A DNA stretch of 64,000 nucleotides. It comes from Streptosporangium saharense (lineage in GTDB: Bacteria; Actinomycetota; Actinomycetes; Streptosporangiales; Streptosporangiaceae). Below, piece by piece: positions 8,621-17,552 of this stretch. The notes beneath the pieces were generated by a model that ran no database searches, was not told the DNA's origin, and saw only the letters and a list, made by a program, of their open reading frames with translations. The DNA lies in NCBI RefSeq assembly GCF_014203715.1, contig NZ_JACHJP010000008.1, positions 1 to 64,000 on the forward strand, read 5' to 3'. A program made the position numbers and the translations under genes. Position 1 is the first letter of the stretch. Each line of letters starts with the position of its first letter.

Positions 8621-9015
8621 GTGCTCCCCGCGCGTGCGGGGATGGTCCCGTGGCGCGGCGGCCAAGCGGCGTCAAGCCGGAGTGCTCCCCGCGCGTGCGG
8701 GGATGGTCCCCCCAACAGGCGATCACGATCATCCATCTCAAGGTGCTCCCCGCGCGTGCGGGGATGGTCCCACCGCCTTAAAGTTATCGGCGCTCCACTC
8801 GTAGTGCTCCCCGCGCACGCGGGGATGGTCCCGAGACCGCGAAGTCACTCGCGGGCCGGTAGGGGTGTTCCCCGCGCACGCGGGGATGGTCCGACGACTA
8901 CGTGACCCTGCTGCACGCCGACGCCGTGCTCCCCGCGCACGCGGGGATGGTCCTTCCATACGGTCTTGTGCGACCAGCGCGACCGGGTGCTCTCTGCGCA
9001 TATGGGGGTGTGTGA
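8621..9015 (+). CRISPR. Type I-E-like CRISPR array, 7 repeats, 6 spacers, no cas genes
   Basis: 28-bp repeats start at 8621, 8682, 8743, 8804, 8865, 8926 and 8987 with an exact 61-bp period, so spacers are 33 nt. Each begins GTGCTCCCCGCGC and ends GCGGGGATGGTCC, the I-E palindromic form. Repeats 1-3 carry loop GCGT; repeats 4-6 carry GCAC. Repeat 5 has one C-to-T change. Repeat 7 is degenerate, placing the leader on the left (before 8621), next to the divergent trpS promoter. No cas gene lies within the window. Confidence 0.97.
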
Positions 9016-9064: not shown

Positions 9065-10018
9065 CTAAAAGTCAGACCCGTGCGGAATGCGGTGGGCCGT
9101 CAACCGTTGGGAAGTGGGCCAGTGGACGTGGGTGGCCCAGCCTGCCTGTTCGAACCAGTGGATGAGGCGGGCGCTTGGGTCGAGTTGGCCCTTGAGGACG
9201 CCGTGGCGGGCGCAGGTGGGTTCGGCGTGGTGCCAGTTGTGCCAGCCCTCGCCGAACGTCAGCATCGCCACCCAGCGGACGTTCGACGAGCGGTCCCTCG
9301 TCGCGAACGGGCGGTCGCCGAAGGTGTGGGAGATGGAGTTCACCGACCACGTGACGTGGTGCACCACGGCGTAGCGGACCAAACCGCCCCAGAACAGCGC
9401 GCTCAGCGCTCCCTGCCATGACATCGACCACAGGCCGCCGACGGCCGTGGGCAGCGCGAACGACAGGGCCACGACGGCGGGGTAGGCGGCGTCGAAGCGC
9501 CGGATGTCGGGGTCGGCGAGCAGGTCGGGCACCCAGTGGGCCCGGCTCGACCGGCTGCGGGCGGTGTAGAACCAGCCGACGTGGGCGTGGACCATGCCGC
9601 GCAGCAGCGCCGGGCCGCTCTCGCCGTACCGCCACGGGGAGTGCGGGTCGCCCTCGCGGTCGGCGTACTTGTGGTGGCGGCGGTGCTCGGCGGCCCAGAG
9701 CGTGACGGGTCCTTCGACGGCCATGCCACCGGCCAGCATCAGCGCGACGCGCAGCGGTCTGCGGCACCGGAACGAGCGGTGGGTGAACAGCCGGTGGTAG
9801 CCGACGGCGATGCCGAAGATGTTGACCGAATACATCACGGCCGCGATGACCAGGTCACGTGGACCGACACCCCACCCCCACGCCGCGGGCACGGCCAGCG
9901 CGAGGAGCACCAGGGGAAGCACCACGAGAACGACGAGGTAGGCGGATCGGCGGCCGACGGTGACCGAGACCGTCTCCGCCGTCCGCTGGCCGGGCCGTGG
10001 GTCGGGCGACAGGGACAC
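9065..10018 (-). CDS. Membrane fatty acyl-CoA/lipid delta-9-type desaturase
   Basis: A 317-residue integral membrane di-iron desaturase with the three histidine boxes HRLFTH, HRRHH and HNWHH and four hydrophobic segments. The family introduces a cis double bond into saturated acyl chains using O2. The GTG at 10018 with GGGAGAAA upstream is preferred; the longer reading to 10111 is proline/arginine rich and lacks a site. It diverges from the P450-dioxygenase-lipase operon. Its unsaturated products would suit the dioxygenase next door (inference). Confidence 0.88.
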   Translation of the reverse strand: MSLSPDPRPGQRTAETVSVTVGRRSAYLVVLVVLPLVLLALAVPAAWGWGVGPRDLVIAAVMYSVNIFGIAVGYHRLFTHRSFRCRRPLRVALMLAGGMAVEGPVTLWAAEHRRHHKYADREGDPHSPWRYGESGPALLRGMVHAHVGWFYTARSRSSRAHWVPDLLADPDIRRFDAAYPAVVALSFALPTAVGGLWSMSWQGALSALFWGGLVRYAVVHHVTWSVNSISHTFGDRPFATRDRSSNVRWVAMLTFGEGWHNWHHAEPTCARHGVLKGQLDPSARLIHWFEQAGWATHVHWPTSQRLTAHRIPHGSDF

Positions 10019-10109
10019 GGTTTCTCCCGCGGTTGGCGGAGGCGGTTTCGGACCCCTTATTGAACGTCCGTATTTCCACGGCGGGGCAGTCGCCCGAAAG
10101 TGACATGAC

Positions 10110-10163
10110 AATCACTCAGTGGCAGCAAAACACTCCATAGAGTAGCCATCGGTGAATCACTCA
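10110..10163. promoter_or_regulatory. Direct repeats in the desaturase/P450 divergent promoter region
   Basis: AATCACTCA occurs at 10110-10118 and again at 10155-10163. An ACTC-CATA-GAGT inverted element lies between them (about 10131-10142). This AT-rich block is the likely shared control region of both divergent units. Confidence 0.4.
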
Positions 10164-10274
10164 CCTCCCTCCTAAATTGTTGGGGCCACCCGATGTGATG
10201 ACCCGTGTTCGCTCCGGCTTTCGATGGGCCGCGGAGGTCCGGAAAGGGGCGACCGGGGGAGAAAGGGCCACAAC

Positions 10275-11573
10275 ATGGGCGTTGTCGACCAGTCGACCAC
10301 CGGTGACCATCTGAGGAGATACGACGAGATCCTGGCCGACGACCCGGTTGCCGCCCTCGCCCTTGTTCTGCGGTGGTTACGCACTGACTGGCGTGTCTTC
10401 CTCGCCGAACTGCGCGAGCACAGGCCGGTCCTCGTCACCCCCGCCTTCACGGTGGTGACCAAACACGCCGACGTCGTCGAGGTGCTCTCCCACGAGGAGG
10501 TCTTCACGGTCCGTTCCTTCGGCCCGCGCCTTGAGGCCGCACTCGGCGCGCCCTTCATGCTCTCCAGGGACGCGACCCCAATGAACTGGCGTGACAAGGG
10601 GCTGATGCGGGTCATGCTCGCCCAGGGCGACGTGGCCCGGGTGCGCGACCTGGCCGGACGGCTGGCGGACGAGGCGCTCGACGCCGCCCAGCCTGGGGGC
10701 CGGGTCGAGGCGGTCCACGGGCTGTTCCGGCACGTCGCCCTCGGGGTCTGCGCCGAGTACTTCGGCCTGCCAGGACCCGACCCGGCGACCCTGTCCCGCT
10801 GGACCAGGGCCGTCATCGTGGACGGCTTCGCCAACTTCCAGGGCGACCCGGAGATACAGGCGGCCGCCGTCGCCGCGGGCGCCGAGCTGACGTCCCACCT
10901 GCACGGCAGGCTCGCCGAGCGCAGGGCCGCGCTGCGGGCCGGGCTCGACCTGCCCGACGACGTCTTCACCCGGCTCGTCGGCACCGTCCTGCCCCCCGGC
11001 ACCGGGTTCGACGACGAGCGCGTAGTGATCAACATGGCCGGGCTGCCCCTGGGGTTCGTCGAGAGCGGTCCCGGTGCCATGGTCGAGGCGGTCGAGCAGC
11101 TCATGCTGCGTCCCGAGGTGTACGGCGAGGCGGTCGGGGCGGCGGCCGAGCCTGATCCCGCCCGGTTCGACTCCTATGTCTGGGAGGCGCTGCGGTTCAA
11201 CCCGTTCTTCAAGCTGCTGCCCCGGGTGTGTGAGCGTGACCACGTCCTGGCCGCGGGCACGCCGCGCCGTACGGTGATCCCGGCGGGCACGTTCGTGCTG
11301 GCCGCGCCCGCGTCCGCGATGTTCGACCCCGACGTGGTCGAGGCGCCCGAAGAGTTCCGTACCGACCGGCCCGCGCACCACCGGTTGTTCTTCGGCCACG
11401 GTCACCACGCCTGCCTGGGCGTCCACCCCGCGAAGGCGATCATCTGCGAGGCCGTACGACGACTGCTGCTGAGACCGGGGGTGCGGCGGCTGCCGGGACC
11501 GGAGGGAGAGATCGTCCGCGCGCACGGCATCTTCCCGGACAGGTTCGTGCTGGGCCTGGGGGAGGCCGGATGA
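10275..11573 (+). CDS. Cytochrome P450, probable hydroperoxide-rearranging type
   Basis: A 432-residue P450 starting at the ATG at 10275 (AAAGGG upstream). The haem-thiolate loop is FFGHGHHACLG (Cys380) and the ExxR motif is EALR (304-307). The I-helix region, about residues 246-275, reads NMAGLPLGFVESGPGAMVEA and lacks the (A/G)Gx(D/E)T acid-alcohol pair that monooxygenases use to split O2. That loss is typical of P450s that rearrange fatty-acid hydroperoxides (CYP74, fungal Ppo P450 domains). It overlaps the next gene by ATGA, so the two are coupled. Function as hydroperoxide isomerase is inferred. Confidence 0.85.
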   Translation: MGVVDQSTTGDHLRRYDEILADDPVAALALVLRWLRTDWRVFLAELREHRPVLVTPAFTVVTKHADVVEVLSHEEVFTVRSFGPRLEAALGAPFMLSRDATPMNWRDKGLMRVMLAQGDVARVRDLAGRLADEALDAAQPGGRVEAVHGLFRHVALGVCAEYFGLPGPDPATLSRWTRAVIVDGFANFQGDPEIQAAAVAAGAELTSHLHGRLAERRAALRAGLDLPDDVFTRLVGTVLPPGTGFDDERVVINMAGLPLGFVESGPGAMVEAVEQLMLRPEVYGEAVGAAAEPDPARFDSYVWEALRFNPFFKLLPRVCERDHVLAAGTPRRTVIPAGTFVLAAPASAMFDPDVVEAPEEFRTDRPAHHRLFFGHGHHACLGVHPAKAIICEAVRRLLLRPGVRRLPGPEGEIVRAHGIFPDRFVLGLGEAG

Positions 11574-13141
11574 GAGCGCGCTGTGTCGCCACGGACGGGC
11601 TCTCCAACCGGTTGCGCTTCCTCGCCCTGACCAGCGGGCGTCCCCTGTGGAAGGCGGCCCAGGCCCTTCCTCCCGTACGGCGCCGCCTCAACGCCACCCT
11701 GATCGACCTCGCGGTCCGCGAGATGCCCCCGAGGCCGGAGCCGCTCAGCGCCATGGCCGACTACACCTCGTGGACCTCGCTGACCGACCGGACCTACAGC
11801 GGCAGGCACCTGCCTCCGGCCGCCGGGGACGACAGTCGCAGGCCGCCCCCCGAGCGGGCCGCCGACCTGTTCGCCCGGGGCGACGTCATGATCCCCTGTC
11901 CGCGTTCGACCGTGTTGTTCGCCTATTTCGCCCAGTGGTTCACCGACGGCTTCCTGCGCGGCGACAGCAACGTGCCGCGTGACCCGCGCAGGAACACCTC
12001 CAACCACCACATCGACCTCAACCAGCTCTACGGCCTGACCCCGGCGGCGACCACGGCCCTGCGCGCCTTCGAGGGCGGGCGGCTGAAGAGCCAGGTCATC
12101 GACGGCGGCGAGTTCCCGCCCTACCTGTGCGAGAACGGCGAGGTCAGGCCGGAGTTCGCCCCGCTGCGGGTTGTCCGCTTCGCGGAGCTCGACACCGTAC
12201 GGCGCGACACCCTCTTCGCCGTCGGCAGCGACCGGGGCAACATCCAGGTCGGCTTCACGATGCTCACTGTGCTGTTCCTGCGCGAGCACAACAGGGTGGC
12301 CGGACTGCTGGCCGAGGACAACCCGCGCTGGGACGACGAACGGCTGTTCCAGACGGCGAGGAACATCCTCATCGTGCTGTTGATCAAGCTGGTCGTGGAG
12401 GAGTACGTCAACCACATCACGCCCTACCACTTCCGCTTCACCCTCGACTCCCGGCTTTCGGCGCGGCTGGCCCACGCGCCCTGGCAGCGGGAGAACTGGG
12501 CGTCTGTCGAGTTCAACCTCGTCTACCGCTGGCACGGGCTCATCCCCTCCAGGCTCTCGGTCGGCAACGCGGACCTCCCGCTGGCCGAGACCCTGTTCGG
12601 CGCCGGGCTGATCCCCGGTCCCGGGCTCGGCAGGGTCTTCGAGGACGCCTCCCGGCAGCGCGCCGGACGGATCGGCCTGTTCAACACCGACCCCGGCCTG
12701 CGGGAGGTGGACGTGGCGAGCGTCGCCGAGTCACGCGCCCTGAACCTCGCCCCCTACAACGCCTACCGCGAGCACTGCCGTTTCCCCAGGGTGCGCCACT
12801 TCGAGCAGATCACCGGCGACCGCAGGGCCGTCGAGGGGCTGCGCGAGCTGTACGGCGGGGCCGACGACGTGGACCTCTACGTCGGCCTGTTCGCCGAGGA
12901 GCCCGCCTCCTCCGACGCCATCCTCCCGCCGCTGCTGACGAAGATCATCGCTATCGACGCCTTCTCCCAGGCGCTCACCAACCCGCTGCTGGCCCCGAGG
13001 GTGTTCAACGCCGCGACCTTCTCCCCGCTCGGCCTGCGGGTCATCGCGGCAACCAGGACGCTGTCCGACGTGCTCAACCGCAACATCCCGGAGGACCCAC
13101 GACCCCGCTACGTCAGCATGAGCCGTGGGGTGGGGCGATGA
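11570..13141 (+). CDS. Cyclooxygenase-like haem fatty-acid dioxygenase
   Basis: A 523-residue animal-haem-peroxidase-family protein. Its core matches prostaglandin synthases closely: FLREHNRVAGLL (237-248), RLFQTARNILI, LVVEEYVNHITPYHF, and YRWHGLIP with catalytic Tyr319 and proximal His322 spaced as in COX Tyr385/His388. The distal segment, FAQHFTHQF in COX, is FAQWFTDGF here: Gln122 is kept, but the distal histidine is Asp126. The radical dioxygenase chemistry should therefore remain while peroxidase activity should be lost. The EGF and membrane-binding domains of animal COX are absent. It is coupled by ATGA overlaps on both sides. Confidence 0.87.
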   Translation: MRARCVATDGLSNRLRFLALTSGRPLWKAAQALPPVRRRLNATLIDLAVREMPPRPEPLSAMADYTSWTSLTDRTYSGRHLPPAAGDDSRRPPPERAADLFARGDVMIPCPRSTVLFAYFAQWFTDGFLRGDSNVPRDPRRNTSNHHIDLNQLYGLTPAATTALRAFEGGRLKSQVIDGGEFPPYLCENGEVRPEFAPLRVVRFAELDTVRRDTLFAVGSDRGNIQVGFTMLTVLFLREHNRVAGLLAEDNPRWDDERLFQTARNILIVLLIKLVVEEYVNHITPYHFRFTLDSRLSARLAHAPWQRENWASVEFNLVYRWHGLIPSRLSVGNADLPLAETLFGAGLIPGPGLGRVFEDASRQRAGRIGLFNTDPGLREVDVASVAESRALNLAPYNAYREHCRFPRVRHFEQITGDRRAVEGLRELYGGADDVDLYVGLFAEEPASSDAILPPLLTKIIAIDAFSQALTNPLLAPRVFNAATFSPLGLRVIAATRTLSDVLNRNIPEDPRPRYVSMSRGVGR

Positions 13142-15282
13142 GCGGGCAGGCCCGTGAGCGCGCCACGCTGCTGCGCGCCGCGGCCTGCGAGGTCGTGGAC
13201 ATCGGCGTCACGATCCAGGAGGTGTCGGCCCACGCGACCGCGGCGCTCTCCGAGAGCGTCGCGCCGGGCGCCGTGGCCCGCGCGCCCGCCGTCGCCTACC
13301 GGGCCGAACGCGCGTTGATCCACGCCGTCACCAACGACCAGGGGCTCGGACACGCCTTCGTCGGCGGGCCGCTCGGCGGTCTGGCCGCCAAGCTCGGCGT
13401 GATGGCGGGTGGAGAGAGCCTCACCGTCCGCGTCCTGGCCACCTCGCTGCGGCTGCGCATCGCCGCCGCGGCCGTCGAGCACCCGGAACTCGGCGACGAC
13501 CCCATGCTGACCAGGCTCGTCGCGGCCGCGGCGGCCGACCACGACATCGAGGCGGTGCGCGCGCTGCGGGCCCTGCTCAAGGACCGGGGCGCGGTGCGCA
13601 CGCTCAGCACGCTCGCCCCGATCTTCGGCGAGGTGCTCGCCCTGCGGGCCCTGCTGGACGAGAACCCGTTCAACGACGAGGCCGCCTGGCTGATCGCGAC
13701 GGGCCGGGGCTTCGCCTCCGCCGACCCGATCACCGGGATGAGCAACAGGGCCTTCGCGGTCCTCGACACCGGCGAGGGAGCCGCCCGCCGCGTCGATCTG
13801 GCCACGGTCGAGGCCGTACGGCTCAGCCAGCGCGGTTCGCTGCTCGGCTTCCTGCGCAACATCGGCCTGCTCGGTACCACGGGCCGGGTGCTCATCCAGA
13901 GCGTCGAGGACGACGAGGGAGTGGTGCGCCACGTCGTCCAGGCGCCGGGCATGCGGCTCGGCCTGCCGGACGACAAGTCGCCGCAGGACCTGCTCGGCGC
14001 CTTCAGCAGCGCCGTACTCGACAGCAGCCCCTACAGCCGCGCGCTGGTCAGGGCCATCGAGGACTACGGTGTGCCGCGCGGTGAGGAACTGGCGCTCATC
14101 GGGCACAGCGCGGGCGGCGCGGTCGTGATGAACCTCGTGCAGGACGCCGGGTTCTGCTCCCGCCACACCGTCACCCACGTCGTGGCGGTCGGCTCGCCCG
14201 TCGACTTCAAACGGCCCGCCGACCCGGACGTCTGGGTCGCCAGCGTCACCAACCAGCACGACATCATCCCCAGCCTCGACGGGCAGGGCGGGAACACGTG
14301 CTTCGACCTGCATCCCGGCTGGTACGTCGTCGACTACTCCGACCCGACCCACCTGTTTCCGCGCTGCCACAGCGTGGAGCACTACATCGCGAACCTCGCC
14401 GACGACCTGCCCGAGGAGCGGGAGCGGATCGACGACGAGCTGGCCCGCTACCGGGGGCGGGTCGTGCGCTCGCAGGCCTACCAGTTGTTCGACAGGGCGC
14501 CCTGCCCCGAGGGGTTCCCGTTCCTGACGGTGCCCACCTATCTCGCCGAGACGTCGGAGGGGACGGTCGAGCTGCCGGTCAGGTGCCAGGACGGCGGCAC
14601 CCTGACCGCCTACTTCGCCGCCGACCCGGACGCCACGGCCGCCCTGCTCGCGGGCACCGGGCTCGGCCCCGCCGTACGGGTCGGCAGGCACGCCCTGGTC
14701 GCGGTGCACGCCTCGTGGAACCGGCGGACCAGCCTGGGTGAATACCACGAGGTCCACCTCGGCGTCGTCGTGCCCGACCCGTGGCACCCGCGTCCGCTGC
14801 GGGCCTGGCCCGACCTGCCGCGCAGCGCCGACCGGAGGCGCTCCGGCAGCTTCCTTGCCGGTTCCGTGGTGGACACCGCCGCCGTCCGGGCTGTCGCGCC
14901 CCGGCTGTGGGGCGGTGAGCCGTACGTCATGCCGGTCGAGTTCGACCTGACCGGAGGGGCGGTGCGGGTCACGGTCGGTGGGCTCGACGACCGGGTTCTC
15001 ACCCTGACCGGCTCGCTCGGCCCGTGGCTGCCCGCGGGGGACCGCGACCTGGTCGCCTACGCGCGCCGGGCGGAGGCGACGCTGCGCTCGTGCGTGCGGA
15101 CCCGCGGTCTCGGCCGGGTGCATCTCGCCCCCCGGGTACGGCTGGCCGTCGGGCGCTCGGCCAACCCGTTGACGGGGCGGCTGCGTGAGCTGGGGCTCGA
15201 CGGCGCCCGCCCGCTGCTGTGCCTGTCCACGATCACCCGGCGGACGCTCCAGGAGGCGTGCGTCCCGGTGCGGACGGTCTGA
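13138..15282 (+). CDS. Large lipase-like alpha/beta-hydrolase
   Basis: A 714-residue protein whose ATG overlaps the dioxygenase stop (ATGA). The central region has the nucleophile elbow LIGHSAGGAV (Ser near 323) and, further on, TNQHDIIPSLDG as the likely Asp region, with HSVEHY supplying a possible His. The N-terminal 250 residues are helical and the C-terminal 250 form no family I recognise. Class-3-lipase-like proteins release fatty acids from lipids. Here it would supply substrate to, or free products from, the neighbouring dioxygenase and P450 (inference). No signal peptide was seen. Confidence 0.72.
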   Translation: MSGQARERATLLRAAACEVVDIGVTIQEVSAHATAALSESVAPGAVARAPAVAYRAERALIHAVTNDQGLGHAFVGGPLGGLAAKLGVMAGGESLTVRVLATSLRLRIAAAAVEHPELGDDPMLTRLVAAAAADHDIEAVRALRALLKDRGAVRTLSTLAPIFGEVLALRALLDENPFNDEAAWLIATGRGFASADPITGMSNRAFAVLDTGEGAARRVDLATVEAVRLSQRGSLLGFLRNIGLLGTTGRVLIQSVEDDEGVVRHVVQAPGMRLGLPDDKSPQDLLGAFSSAVLDSSPYSRALVRAIEDYGVPRGEELALIGHSAGGAVVMNLVQDAGFCSRHTVTHVVAVGSPVDFKRPADPDVWVASVTNQHDIIPSLDGQGGNTCFDLHPGWYVVDYSDPTHLFPRCHSVEHYIANLADDLPEERERIDDELARYRGRVVRSQAYQLFDRAPCPEGFPFLTVPTYLAETSEGTVELPVRCQDGGTLTAYFAADPDATAALLAGTGLGPAVRVGRHALVAVHASWNRRTSLGEYHEVHLGVVVPDPWHPRPLRAWPDLPRSADRRRSGSFLAGSVVDTAAVRAVAPRLWGGEPYVMPVEFDLTGGAVRVTVGGLDDRVLTLTGSLGPWLPAGDRDLVAYARRAEATLRSCVRTRGLGRVHLAPRVRLAVGRSANPLTGRLRELGLDGARPLLCLSTITRRTLQEACVPVRTV

Positions 15283-15313
15283 CCGCGCCGAGACCGGAGA
15301 AGCGGAGGAACGG

Positions 15314-15574
15314 ATGTCATCTTCCCCCGACAAACAGGACGCGCCGGAGAGGATCGCCGCGCGGGTCGAGCTGTTGCGATCCGACGTCCGCAGGCTCGCC
15401 GACTGCGCGGAACGCCTGCGCAGGGTCGAGGCGGAGCTCGACGCGGGCGGCGCGGCGCCGCCGTGGTTGCGTGAGACGGTGCGTGCACATCTGGAGGCGT
15501 GCGCGGTGGCCGCCGCCGACCTGGCGGAGGCGGAGGCCAGACTGAGCCGCTACGCCGAACGCCTCGGCGCCTGA
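15314..15574 (+). CDS. Small coiled-coil protein, last gene of oxylipin operon
   Basis: An 86-residue charged helical protein beginning at the ATG at 15314 with GGAGGAACGG upstream, 31 nt after the lipase stop. Heptad-like leucines and alternating Arg/Glu (RVELLRSDVRRLADCAERLR and LAEAEARLSRYAERLG) predict a two-helix coiled coil around a PPW turn. No family is recognised. Its place suggests an accessory or assembly role for the operon's enzymes. Confidence 0.65.
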   Translation: MSSSPDKQDAPERIAARVELLRSDVRRLADCAERLRRVEAELDAGGAAPPWLRETVRAHLEACAVAAADLAEAEARLSRYAERLGA

Positions 15575-15653: not shown

Positions 15654-15752
15654 GTGGGAAGGCGTGTGGCCTTGTGGGAAGCGCTGATGCCTGGATTCGG
15701 TGTGTGGGAAGGCGGTTCGGGGTTGTGGGAAGACGCGTGACGGGGTGGGAAG
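15654..15752 (+). repeat. Five phased GTGGGAAG repeats
   Basis: GTGGGAAG occurs at 15654, 15674, 15704, 15725 and 15745, at spacings of 20, 30, 21 and 20 bp. All lie on one helix face, between the convergent ends of the coiled-coil and amine-oxidase genes. A GC-rich block of about 2.5 units of 21 bp (GAGAGCGCCGGGCGCCGGAG) follows at 15784-15827 and could terminate transcription from both sides. Confidence 0.7.
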
Positions 15753-15827
15753 CGGCTGGTACGGCGGAGCGCCCGGCGCCGGAGGGAGAGCGCCGGGCGC
15801 CGGAGGGAGAGCGCCGGGCGCCGGGGG

Positions 15828-17294
15828 TCAGGCCGCCTCGTGGATGGCCTGGGCCGCCTTGAGCCCTGACTCCAGGGCTCCCTCGATCCAGGCGTGCCAC
15901 AGCGAGCAGTGCTCACCGGCGAAGTGCACGCGACCCTCGGGGGCGATGATCGCGTCGTGCAGGCTCGTCTGCTGGTGCGGCTCGAACAGGGCGAAGGCCC
16001 CCGCCGCGTAGGGGTCGTCGTACCACGCGTGCGTGACGCCGAACTCGAAGTGGTCGTGGATCTCGGGGTGGATCTTGGCGACGTCCTCAAGGGCCTGCTC
16101 GACCCGCTTCTGCGGCGACATCGCGCCCCAGCGCAGGGCGTCCTGTCCCCAGGTGTAGCTGGCGAGCAGGACCGAGCGCTCCTCGTCGTGGGCGCCGTGC
16201 GAGGGGTAGCAGATGCGGCGGATCGGCAGGTCGGTGACCGTGGTGCCGCCGACGATGCCCTCCGTCTGCTCCCAGAACGGCCGCCGCACCTGGAAGAGGA
16301 TCTTGGTCGAGGCGTTGTAGTTCAGCTCGCGGATGGCGCGCTGCTTGCGGCGGGAGAAGGCGGGCCTGGTCTCCACGTCGCGCAGCACCGAGAACGGGAT
16401 CGTGCAGATCGCGTAGTCGCCGGTCAGCGTCGTCCTGCCGGAGGCCGTCCTGACGTGCAGGGTGACCGAGTTGTCGTTCTGCTCGATGGCGGTGACCTCG
16501 TGGCCGAACCTGATGTGGTTCCTCAGCTCGCGGTAGAAGGCGGTCGGCAGCCGGTCGGTGCCGCCCTCGATCTCCTGCATGTCCTCGAACGCCCGCCCGA
16601 CGATCTCGCGGAACTGCTCGATGACCGCCGCGTTCAGGTTGGACTCCCTGAAGCTCATGACGCCGTACAGCTCGATGGCGCCCTCGGAGAAGCCGCGCTC
16701 GCGCAGGAACCCTCGGATGGAGTAGCGGTCGTACTCGGCGCAGATGCGGTCGAGCGCGGCCTCACCCTCCTGGGCGTACAGGTCGTGGATCTCCTGGGTG
16801 GCGGTGCGCCACAGGTCCTCGTAGGTCCGGCCGCGCTCGTGCTCGGCCAGCTCGAAGTCGATGACGCCGGGGTTGTCGTTCAGCTCCCTGACGGTGGTCC
16901 TGACGCCCTGGATGTAGGCCAGGGTGTTGGGGTTGCCCATCACGAAGGGGCGCAGGGTGAGCCCGAACCGCTCGCAGTAGGCAAGGGTGAGGTCGTGCAC
17001 GCGCGGGATGCGCATCGCTCCGGCCTCGGCGTACAGGCCGGGGGCGAAGTCCCGCAGGGTGAGCACCCGCCCGCCGACCCGCTGCTGGGCTTCGAGGACG
17101 ACGGGCTCGTGCCCCTGACGCATCAGCTCGTAGGCGGCGACGAGACCGGCCATCCCACCGCCGATGACCAGAACCCGCTTGCGCGGGGTGCCGCCGGAGG
17201 TCAGGCCGTGCTCGGCGGTCGCGACCAGGGCGGCGGGGACTCGCAGCTCGTGACTCGGTCTCGGGGCTCCCGCCTCGATCAGCTCTTCGGGCAT
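15828..17294 (-). CDS. Flavin amine/L-amino-acid oxidase
   Basis: A 488-residue FAD enzyme of the monoamine-oxidase superfamily. The Rossmann motif VLVIGGGMAGLVAAYEL is followed by VLEAQQRVGGRVLTLRDF and AEAGAMRIP, and the C-terminal FAD motif is VHFAGEHCSLWHAWIEGALESG. These fit L-amino-acid oxidases and related enzymes that oxidise a C-N bond to yield imine, ammonia and H2O2. The ATG at 17294 fits the family N-terminus; the upstream reading to 17423 is weak. It diverges from a D-aminopeptidase gene with an inverted repeat between, which suggests shared control of amino-acid or peptide catabolism. Confidence 0.85.
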   Translation of the reverse strand: MPEELIEAGAPRPSHELRVPAALVATAEHGLTSGGTPRKRVLVIGGGMAGLVAAYELMRQGHEPVVLEAQQRVGGRVLTLRDFAPGLYAEAGAMRIPRVHDLTLAYCERFGLTLRPFVMGNPNTLAYIQGVRTTVRELNDNPGVIDFELAEHERGRTYEDLWRTATQEIHDLYAQEGEAALDRICAEYDRYSIRGFLRERGFSEGAIELYGVMSFRESNLNAAVIEQFREIVGRAFEDMQEIEGGTDRLPTAFYRELRNHIRFGHEVTAIEQNDNSVTLHVRTASGRTTLTGDYAICTIPFSVLRDVETRPAFSRRKQRAIRELNYNASTKILFQVRRPFWEQTEGIVGGTTVTDLPIRRICYPSHGAHDEERSVLLASYTWGQDALRWGAMSPQKRVEQALEDVAKIHPEIHDHFEFGVTHAWYDDPYAAGAFALFEPHQQTSLHDAIIAPEGRVHFAGEHCSLWHAWIEGALESGLKAAQAIHEAA

Positions 17295-17357
17295 CGCCGT
17301 ACCTGAGATCGGCGATTTGTTGGTGTTCAGAGCGTCACACCCCCTATGTTCACGTAA

Positions 17358-17375
17358 AGCGACTGTAGTGTCGCT
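17358..17375. promoter_or_regulatory. Inverted repeat in amine-oxidase/dppA divergent region
   Basis: AGCGAC-TGTAGT-GTCGCT: perfect 6-bp arms around a 6-bp centre, 64 bp before the amine-oxidase start. It is a plausible operator for an unlinked regulator. Confidence 0.45.
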
Positions 17376-17552
17376 GTCAGTAATCTCACCTGTTGGGGAG
17401 AACGTCAAGACGATCCGGAACATCCGTCACGCGAAGGAGCAACGGAGTCATCTCCAAATGCGAGCCGTACGGCTTGGCGGGCGGAACGTAGCCCGAGCTG
17501 CCGTTCCCGGGGAGGCTGGACGGTGTCGTCCGCCAAGCGTGAGGAGTCCCGG

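Follow-up and report, generated by a model that had tools for sequence, protein, structure and literature searches.

A cluster of six genes in the actinomycete Streptosporangium saharense probably encodes a bacterial pathway from fatty acids to signal-type oxylipins, an unfused counterpart of the fungal dioxygenase-P450 fusions. The cluster lies in a 64,000-nt stretch of contig NZ_JACHJP010000008.1 (the window; host genome, 8.5 Mb) and comprises genes for a cytochrome P450, a cyclooxygenase (COX)-like heme dioxygenase (DOX), an alpha/beta-hydrolase, a small helical protein, a divergently transcribed membrane desaturase, and a convergent flavin L-amino-acid oxidase (LAAO) (Table 1). The assignment is founded on observed gene identities, key residues, co-occurrence, co-evolution, and the exclusivity of two types of heme partner. 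A preliminary description had listed five of these genes, with the desaturase diverging from four plus-strand genes joined by ATGA overlaps or a 31-nt gap, and the open reading frames (ORFs) bear out that layout in full; it overlooked LAAO, which lies outside the coordinates it covered. Among known pathways, P450s are coupled to COX-like dioxygenases in the fungal fusions and in mammals, where COX works with prostacyclin and thromboxane synthases; what is new here is an unfused, modular bacterial variant of this theme, and we found no report in the open-access literature of an actinobacterial or rhizobial P450-dioxygenase operon of this kind. More tentatively, with a chance somewhat below even, the locus may represent a widespread modular system in which a DOX without peroxidase chemistry is ignited by LAAO, obtains its substrate through a dedicated hydrolase and desaturase, and hands its hydroperoxide to one of two heme partners that can replace each other: in actinomycetes and rhizobia this is a P450, whereas cyanobacteria and other alphaproteobacteria use a catalase-related lyase. 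The P450 form would then be the unfused state and possible origin of the fungal fusions.

A dioxygenase of the COX and 10S-DOX branch

Among solved structures, the dioxygenase is most similar to COX-2 (E = 4e-65, 224 bits, residues 20 to 506) and next to COX-1, as the preliminary description had proposed. Other members of the peroxidase-cyclooxygenase superfamily score lower, including peroxinectin (6e-22), alpha-dioxygenase (9e-17), and then mammalian peroxidases. Because its catalytic domain scores highest with COX, we place the protein in the COX/10S-DOX branch. We rejected an identity as alpha-dioxygenase (64 bits, against 224 for COX-2) and as a mammalian-type peroxidase, for which scores are lower and the distal residue is Asp. 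The match spans the whole COX catalytic domain and retains the positions of Gln203, Tyr348, Tyr385, and His388; Gln122, Tyr319, and the proximal His322, which correspond to COX Gln203, Tyr385, and His388, are conserved in 91 of 91 relatives, as is the YxWH motif (Y319, H322). Two positions differ from COX: Ser530 is replaced by Ala464, and the distal His207 by Asp126, so that the classical COX distal histidine is absent; nothing points to an endoperoxide product. All 91 relatives recovered carry the distal Asp, a count that is partly biased because some were collected with the pattern FAQWFTD, which itself contains this residue. The same Asp (Q[WY][FL]TD) is present in proteins found without the pattern, from Acaryochloris, Paracoccus, rhizobia, Methylobacterium, and Ruegeria.

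The distal motif FTDGF and the terminal motif I460-A-I-D-A464-F-S-Q467-A both fit the published motifs of cyanobacterial linoleate 10S-DOX, which departs from COX at the distal histidine (F143-t-d-s-F), ends its terminal motif in DA487-F-x-Q490-A, and forms 10S-hydroperoxides from oleate and linoleate for further conversion by a separate catalase-related lyase (PMC13049297, a 2026 review). Compared by its published motifs, the Nostoc punctiforme linoleate 10S-dioxygenase (B2J5P4) shares with the window DOX the COX-like family, the distal Asp (FTDxF), the Tyr, the proximal His, and the terminal motif I/L-P-...-DAF-x-Q/E-A. The two systems also share a separately encoded heme partner that converts the hydroperoxide, a catalase-related hydroperoxide lyase in Nostoc; the window set differs in having a P450 in this role and in its hydrolase, desaturase, and LAAO. 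In Scytonema, one DOX with 48% identity to ours is followed by a catalase-related gene, and a second protein (∼43% identity), which carries the published 10S-DOX motifs, has such a gene within about 150 nt behind it. The preliminary description had likened the locus to fungal Ppo enzymes with the two activities on separate genes; sequence and co-occurrence support the idea of an unfused counterpart strongly, although published fungal Ppo is more distant from the DOX itself than cyanobacterial 10S-DOX and COX are.

Because the distal histidine is lost, the DOX is probably a poor peroxidase. It is unlikely that the COX-like protein instead serves as a peroxidase or has a substrate other than a fatty acid, such as a polyketide, isoprenoid, or aromatic compound. 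The superfamily does include peroxidases, and a fatty-acid substrate for the DOX clade is something we infer, but the loss of the distal histidine in 91 of 91 relatives runs contrary to peroxidase function, the DOX is closest to COX and the fatty-acid 10S-DOX, a desaturase is part of the cluster, and in other genomes the hydrolase module stands beside an alpha-dioxygenase (see below).

Conserved neighbors and an exchangeable heme partner

We compared gene neighborhoods in a DOX-centered sample of 80 genome loci and partner genes at 91 DOX loci. A P450 lies near DOX at 71 of the 80 loci, the hydrolase and the desaturase are each found at 67, and a homologue of the small protein stands behind the hydrolase at 44; the closest named relatives are species of Streptosporangium, Nonomuraea, and Actinomadura. 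The preliminary description had proposed co-occurrence as a check, and P450, DOX, and hydrolase do co-occur among 201 Streptosporangiaceae genomes (DOX in 35, P450 in 34, hydrolase in 34), with pairwise overlaps of 33, 34, and 33 (Fisher P = 3e-34, 1e-37, and 2e-35, values uncorrected for phylogeny). The exceptions trace to divergent DOXs of 47 to 48% identity in G005 and G165 and, in G018, to a hydrolase lying at the edge of a contig. G005 shows apparent decay of the pair, with an intact P450 and a DOX reduced to an N-terminal remnant of ∼60 amino acids (L113:7733-9228). In a phylum-wide sample of 296 genomes, the hydrolase was found only in the window's own genome, and the gene set is therefore rare across the phylum while common in Streptosporangiaceae.

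Translational coupling is also widely retained. In the window, P450 and DOX overlap by ATGA at 11570-11573, DOX and hydrolase overlap by ATGA at 13138-13141, and the small protein follows after 31 nt (15283-15313). Across loci, the spacing between P450 and DOX is -4 to +3 nt in 50 of 72 cases, and that between DOX and hydrolase is -4 in 30 of 58. Pairwise distances of DOX and P450 across 74 loci are correlated at r = 0.90, against a maximum of 0.30 in 2,000 label permutations. Dozens of species share these genes and couplings, so their grouping is not chance. An assembly of unrelated genes that are neighbors by accident is barely credible: the desaturase diverges and at some loci is distant or missing, and the small protein is often not found, but co-occurrence and co-evolution argue otherwise, and in Streptomyces the genes remain within about 8 kb even though their order and strands are altered (hydrolase inverted or moved, desaturase on the opposite side). 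For DOX, P450, and hydrolase, the co-occurrence, the co-evolution, and the retained Streptomyces neighborhood refute a chance association.

A plasmid search turned up relatives in alphaproteobacteria and cyanobacteria. Plasmids of Rhizobium etli, R. gallicum, and Sinorhizobium medicae carry P450-DOX pairs, the P450s of R. etli and S. medicae being 36 to 39% identical to the window P450. A catalase-family gene adjoins DOX in Paracoccus yeei and in Methylobacterium, and in Ruegeria the "hypothetical protein" at the partner position is a homologue of the catalase-related protein. The two partner types exclude each other: among the 91 DOX loci, 74 have a P450, 6 have a catalase-related gene, none has both, and 11 have neither. 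Loci of the last kind include L082, L087, L090, L094, and L095 (Solirubrobacter, Frankia, and others); in L087, DOX overlaps an 816-amino-acid ORF without a Pfam match. The rhizobial pairs (L126:3703-6620, L129:3712-6614, and L130:3721-6617) come from plasmids of nodule bacteria, and oxylipin production during symbiosis is possible.

Hydrolase, desaturase, and LAAO as proposed supply genes

The preliminary description had called the GHSAGG protein a lipase. The GxSxG motif stands, and the triad Ser324, Asp375, and His411 is invariant in 32 homologues, which match Lipase_3 and Abhydrolase; the protein has 714 amino acids, with a helical N terminus, an alpha/beta-hydrolase core, and a C-terminal domain resembling acetoacetate decarboxylase (ADC). 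The ADC family is matched in 13 of the 32 homologues (best E = 2e-9), and Foldseek places the domain closest to acetoacetate decarboxylases (3bgt, E = 2e-10). We rejected a decarboxylase or aldolase role, because the window domain contains no Lys at all, and so lacks the Schiff-base Lys, and the whole domain is missing from several homologues of ∼460 amino acids. A Pfam scan of the small protein returned no family. Rhizohabitans and two Sinosporangium genomes have a fatty-acid alpha-dioxygenase (PDB 4kvj, E = 7e-119) that is flanked by homologues of both this hydrolase and the small protein; no P450 is present there. A single hydrolase-small protein module is thus used with heme dioxygenases of two kinds, of which one acts on fatty acids, and this lends independent support to fatty acyl substrates.

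The desaturase is related to acyl-CoA (stearoyl-CoA) desaturase (4zyo/4ymk, E = 3e-30), and three more desaturases are encoded elsewhere in the genome. Alignments with its homologues mostly begin somewhere between residues ∼14 and 47 of the listed ORF, and the true start probably lies downstream of TTG 10111. In most of 19 aligned upstream regions of Streptosporangium/Nonomuraea type, the palindrome AGTGA-N8-TCACT of the divergent promoter region is kept and is followed by a conserved CTAGATTGTGG stretch; together these are a candidate operator and promoter. For the P450, ATG 10275, behind a GGAGAAAGG-like site, is a likelier start than the alternative ATG 10224.

The convergent LAAO gene is similar over its full length to a flavin LAAO structure. 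LAAO is present in 14 of the 201 Streptosporangiaceae genomes, all 14 of which are DOX positive (P = 2e-12), even where LAAO lies on another contig. In one relative (locus L088/L137), all six genes stand on one strand in the order hydrolase, small protein, LAAO, P450, DOX, and desaturase. Since heme dioxygenases of the COX/10S-DOX type are ignited by peroxide (PMC13049297), a dedicated source of H2O2 is plausible, and LAAO may plausibly fill this role for the DOX heme.

The P450 and the proposed route

The P450 retains ExxR (E304, R307) and the heme ligand Cys380, invariant in 29 homologues, and its AlphaFold 2 (AF2) model adopts a P450 fold (Z of ∼40 against bacterial P450s). Its I helix is broken at residues 262 to 263, between AF2 helices 247-261 and 264-277, and the acid-alcohol position within G260-F-V-E263-S264 is occupied by Glu263-Ser264. 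At the same position, DOX partners carry Glu-Asn (Actinomadura, Acrocarpospora), Gln-Asn (Streptomyces), or Glu-Thr (rhizobia), with a Gln at +3 in the Acrocarpospora, Streptomyces, and rhizobial proteins, giving Asn-x-x-Gln (NxxQ) in Streptomyces and Acrocarpospora. Fungal diol synthases have NQxQ in this helix, and fungal 8R/9R allene oxide synthases have Thr at the Asn site (PMC13049297). The deeper bacterial partners thus appear from these residues to resemble fungal hydroperoxide isomerases, while the window P450 is ambiguous in form: at the fungal Asn and Gln sites it has Ser264 and Gly267, so that the motif of fungal linoleate diol synthases is absent (S264-G-P-G), as is the FNxxGG-type I helix of the CYP74 clan (LGFVESGPG; motif as quoted in PMC13049297), and we rejected CYP74 membership for lack of that motif. 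We also withdrew a view of the P450 as lacking an acid-alcohol pair, given Glu263-Ser264 just at the helix break and Glu-Thr in the rhizobial partners.

These residues bear on the main rival, in which DOX forms a hydroperoxide or hydroxy acid and the P450, as an ordinary monooxygenase dependent on redox partners, then hydroxylates or epoxidizes the product. We give this a modest chance. It draws on the acid-alcohol-like pairs in the window and in rhizobia and on the nearest folds, which are class I bacterial P450s; in comparison with the PDB, P450BioI with acyl-ACP ranks first (Z, 39.8) but is effectively tied with CYP134 and others within about 1 Z, and the absence of an oxylipin P450 among the rows listed excludes nothing. 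Against it, the I-helix Thr is replaced by Asn in the Actinomadura, Acrocarpospora, and Streptomyces partners, the window P450 has Phe261 in place of the helix Gly that precedes the acid, the compact six-gene cassette contains neither a ferredoxin nor a reductase and none is annotated beside the rhizobial pairs, and sister dioxygenases have a catalase-related protein in place of the P450. That protein is described as the lyase that acts on the 10S-DOX hydroperoxide (PMC13049297), which makes it most likely that the P450 uses the hydroperoxide too. A further alternative, that H2O2 from LAAO drives the P450 as a CYP152-like fatty-acid peroxygenase with DOX working alongside, seems quite improbable. 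The distribution of LAAO is nested inside the DOX/P450 set, which speaks for it, but most genomes with the P450 have no LAAO. CYP152 P450s carry an Arg in the I helix, which is absent from the window sequence (G260FVESGPGAM).

For the oxylipin pathway that we favor, we infer the substrate, the regiochemistry (10-position), the product, the P450 reaction, and the roles of hydrolase and oxidase. Hydrolysis of a lipid or thioester by the hydrolase would release the fatty acid, whose double bond would come, wholly or in part, from the acyl-CoA-type desaturase. Once the DOX heme has been ignited, probably by H2O2 from LAAO, the Tyr319 radical of DOX would take an allylic hydrogen and O2 would be added. 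Judging from the relatives of DOX, the resulting fatty-acid hydroperoxide would most likely be the 10-hydroperoxide, formed from a monounsaturated or an 18:2 acid. Because DOX is probably a poor peroxidase, the hydroperoxide would leave it intact, and the co-translated P450 would isomerize or cleave it at its heme, in the role of the P450 half of the fungal fusions or the catalase-related lyase of cyanobacteria.

Several points weigh against this pathway. The DOX clade is without known activity, substrate, or product, and polyunsaturated acids are not known to be abundant in actinomycetes. Loss of the distal histidine might impair activation of the DOX, and Glu263-Ser264 in the window and Glu-Thr in rhizobia could be used by a monooxygenase. 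The window hydrolase is only weakly matched in Pfam, the 11 DOX loci with neither partner adjoining do not fit, and LAAO is missing from 21 of 35 DOX genomes and is therefore not essential.

The fungal fusions (Ppo and the linoleate diol, epoxy alcohol, and allene oxide synthases) share with the bacterial sets a COX-like dioxygenase with a dedicated P450, the HxC heme motif, and, in the deeper bacterial partners, Asn-x-x-Gln. They differ in being one polypeptide, where the window has two translationally coupled proteins, P450 then DOX, and in retaining the distal histidine, where the window DOX has Asp126. Plant and bacterial alpha-dioxygenases belong to the same superfamily and stand beside the same hydrolase and small-protein homologues in three loci. 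The oleate 10S-DOX/7,10-diol synthase system of Pseudomonas aeruginosa is likewise a two-step bacterial oxylipin route, but its enzymes are unrelated, of the di-heme cytochrome c peroxidase type (PMC4496055). If the proposed pathway is correct, the unfused set with its dedicated supply genes would offer a simple system for peroxide ignition without a distal histidine; it would make approachable how the P450 I helix chooses among diol, epoxy alcohol, allene oxide, and lyase chemistry, with Asn, Ser, and Thr occurring naturally at one site; and it would bear on the origin of the fungal fusions and on whether oxylipins sensed by plants or fungi are made by soil actinomycetes and root-nodule rhizobia.

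TABLE 1 Features of the S. saharense window and of related alpha-dioxygenase loci
Feature	Position	Strand	Evidence
Small CRISPR array	8621-8953		Six 28-nt repeat copies
Membrane fatty-acyl desaturase	9065-10111	-	FA_desaturase PF00487, E = 4e-21 (Pfam)
AGTGA-N8-TCACT palindrome, candidate operator	10099-10116	.	Alignment of 19 upstream regions
Cytochrome P450, DOX partner	10275-11573	+	p450 PF00067, E = 1e-8; AF2 pLDDT 92
Predicted COX-like heme fatty-acid dioxygenase (DOX)	11570-13141	+	An_peroxidase, E = 2e-47; COX-2 match, E = 4e-65
Hydrolase, 714 amino acids, alpha/beta-hydrolase core	13138-15282	+	Abhydrolase_1, E = 0.004; PGAP1, E = 0.008
Small helical/coiled-coil protein, 86 amino acids	15314-15574	+	Homologues behind hydrolase; no Pfam family
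Flavin L-amino-acid oxidase (LAAO), convergent	15828-17423	-	LAAO structure match, E = 3e-95
Second, alpha-dioxygenase cluster (other genomes)	L112:6639-11226; L111:8727-12964; L115:6902-11199		Alpha-dioxygenase, small protein, hydrolase homologue

Two repeat features lie in this part of the window. The CRISPR array, with a 28-nt repeat (GTGCTCCCCGCGCGTGCGGGGATGGTCC) at 61-nt spacing, lies between a TrpRS-like gene and the desaturase and accounts for long false ORFs at 8621-8953. Short GCGCCGGGCGCCGGAGGGAGA repeats at window positions 15740-15830, between the small protein and the convergent LAAO gene, are perhaps a bidirectional terminator.

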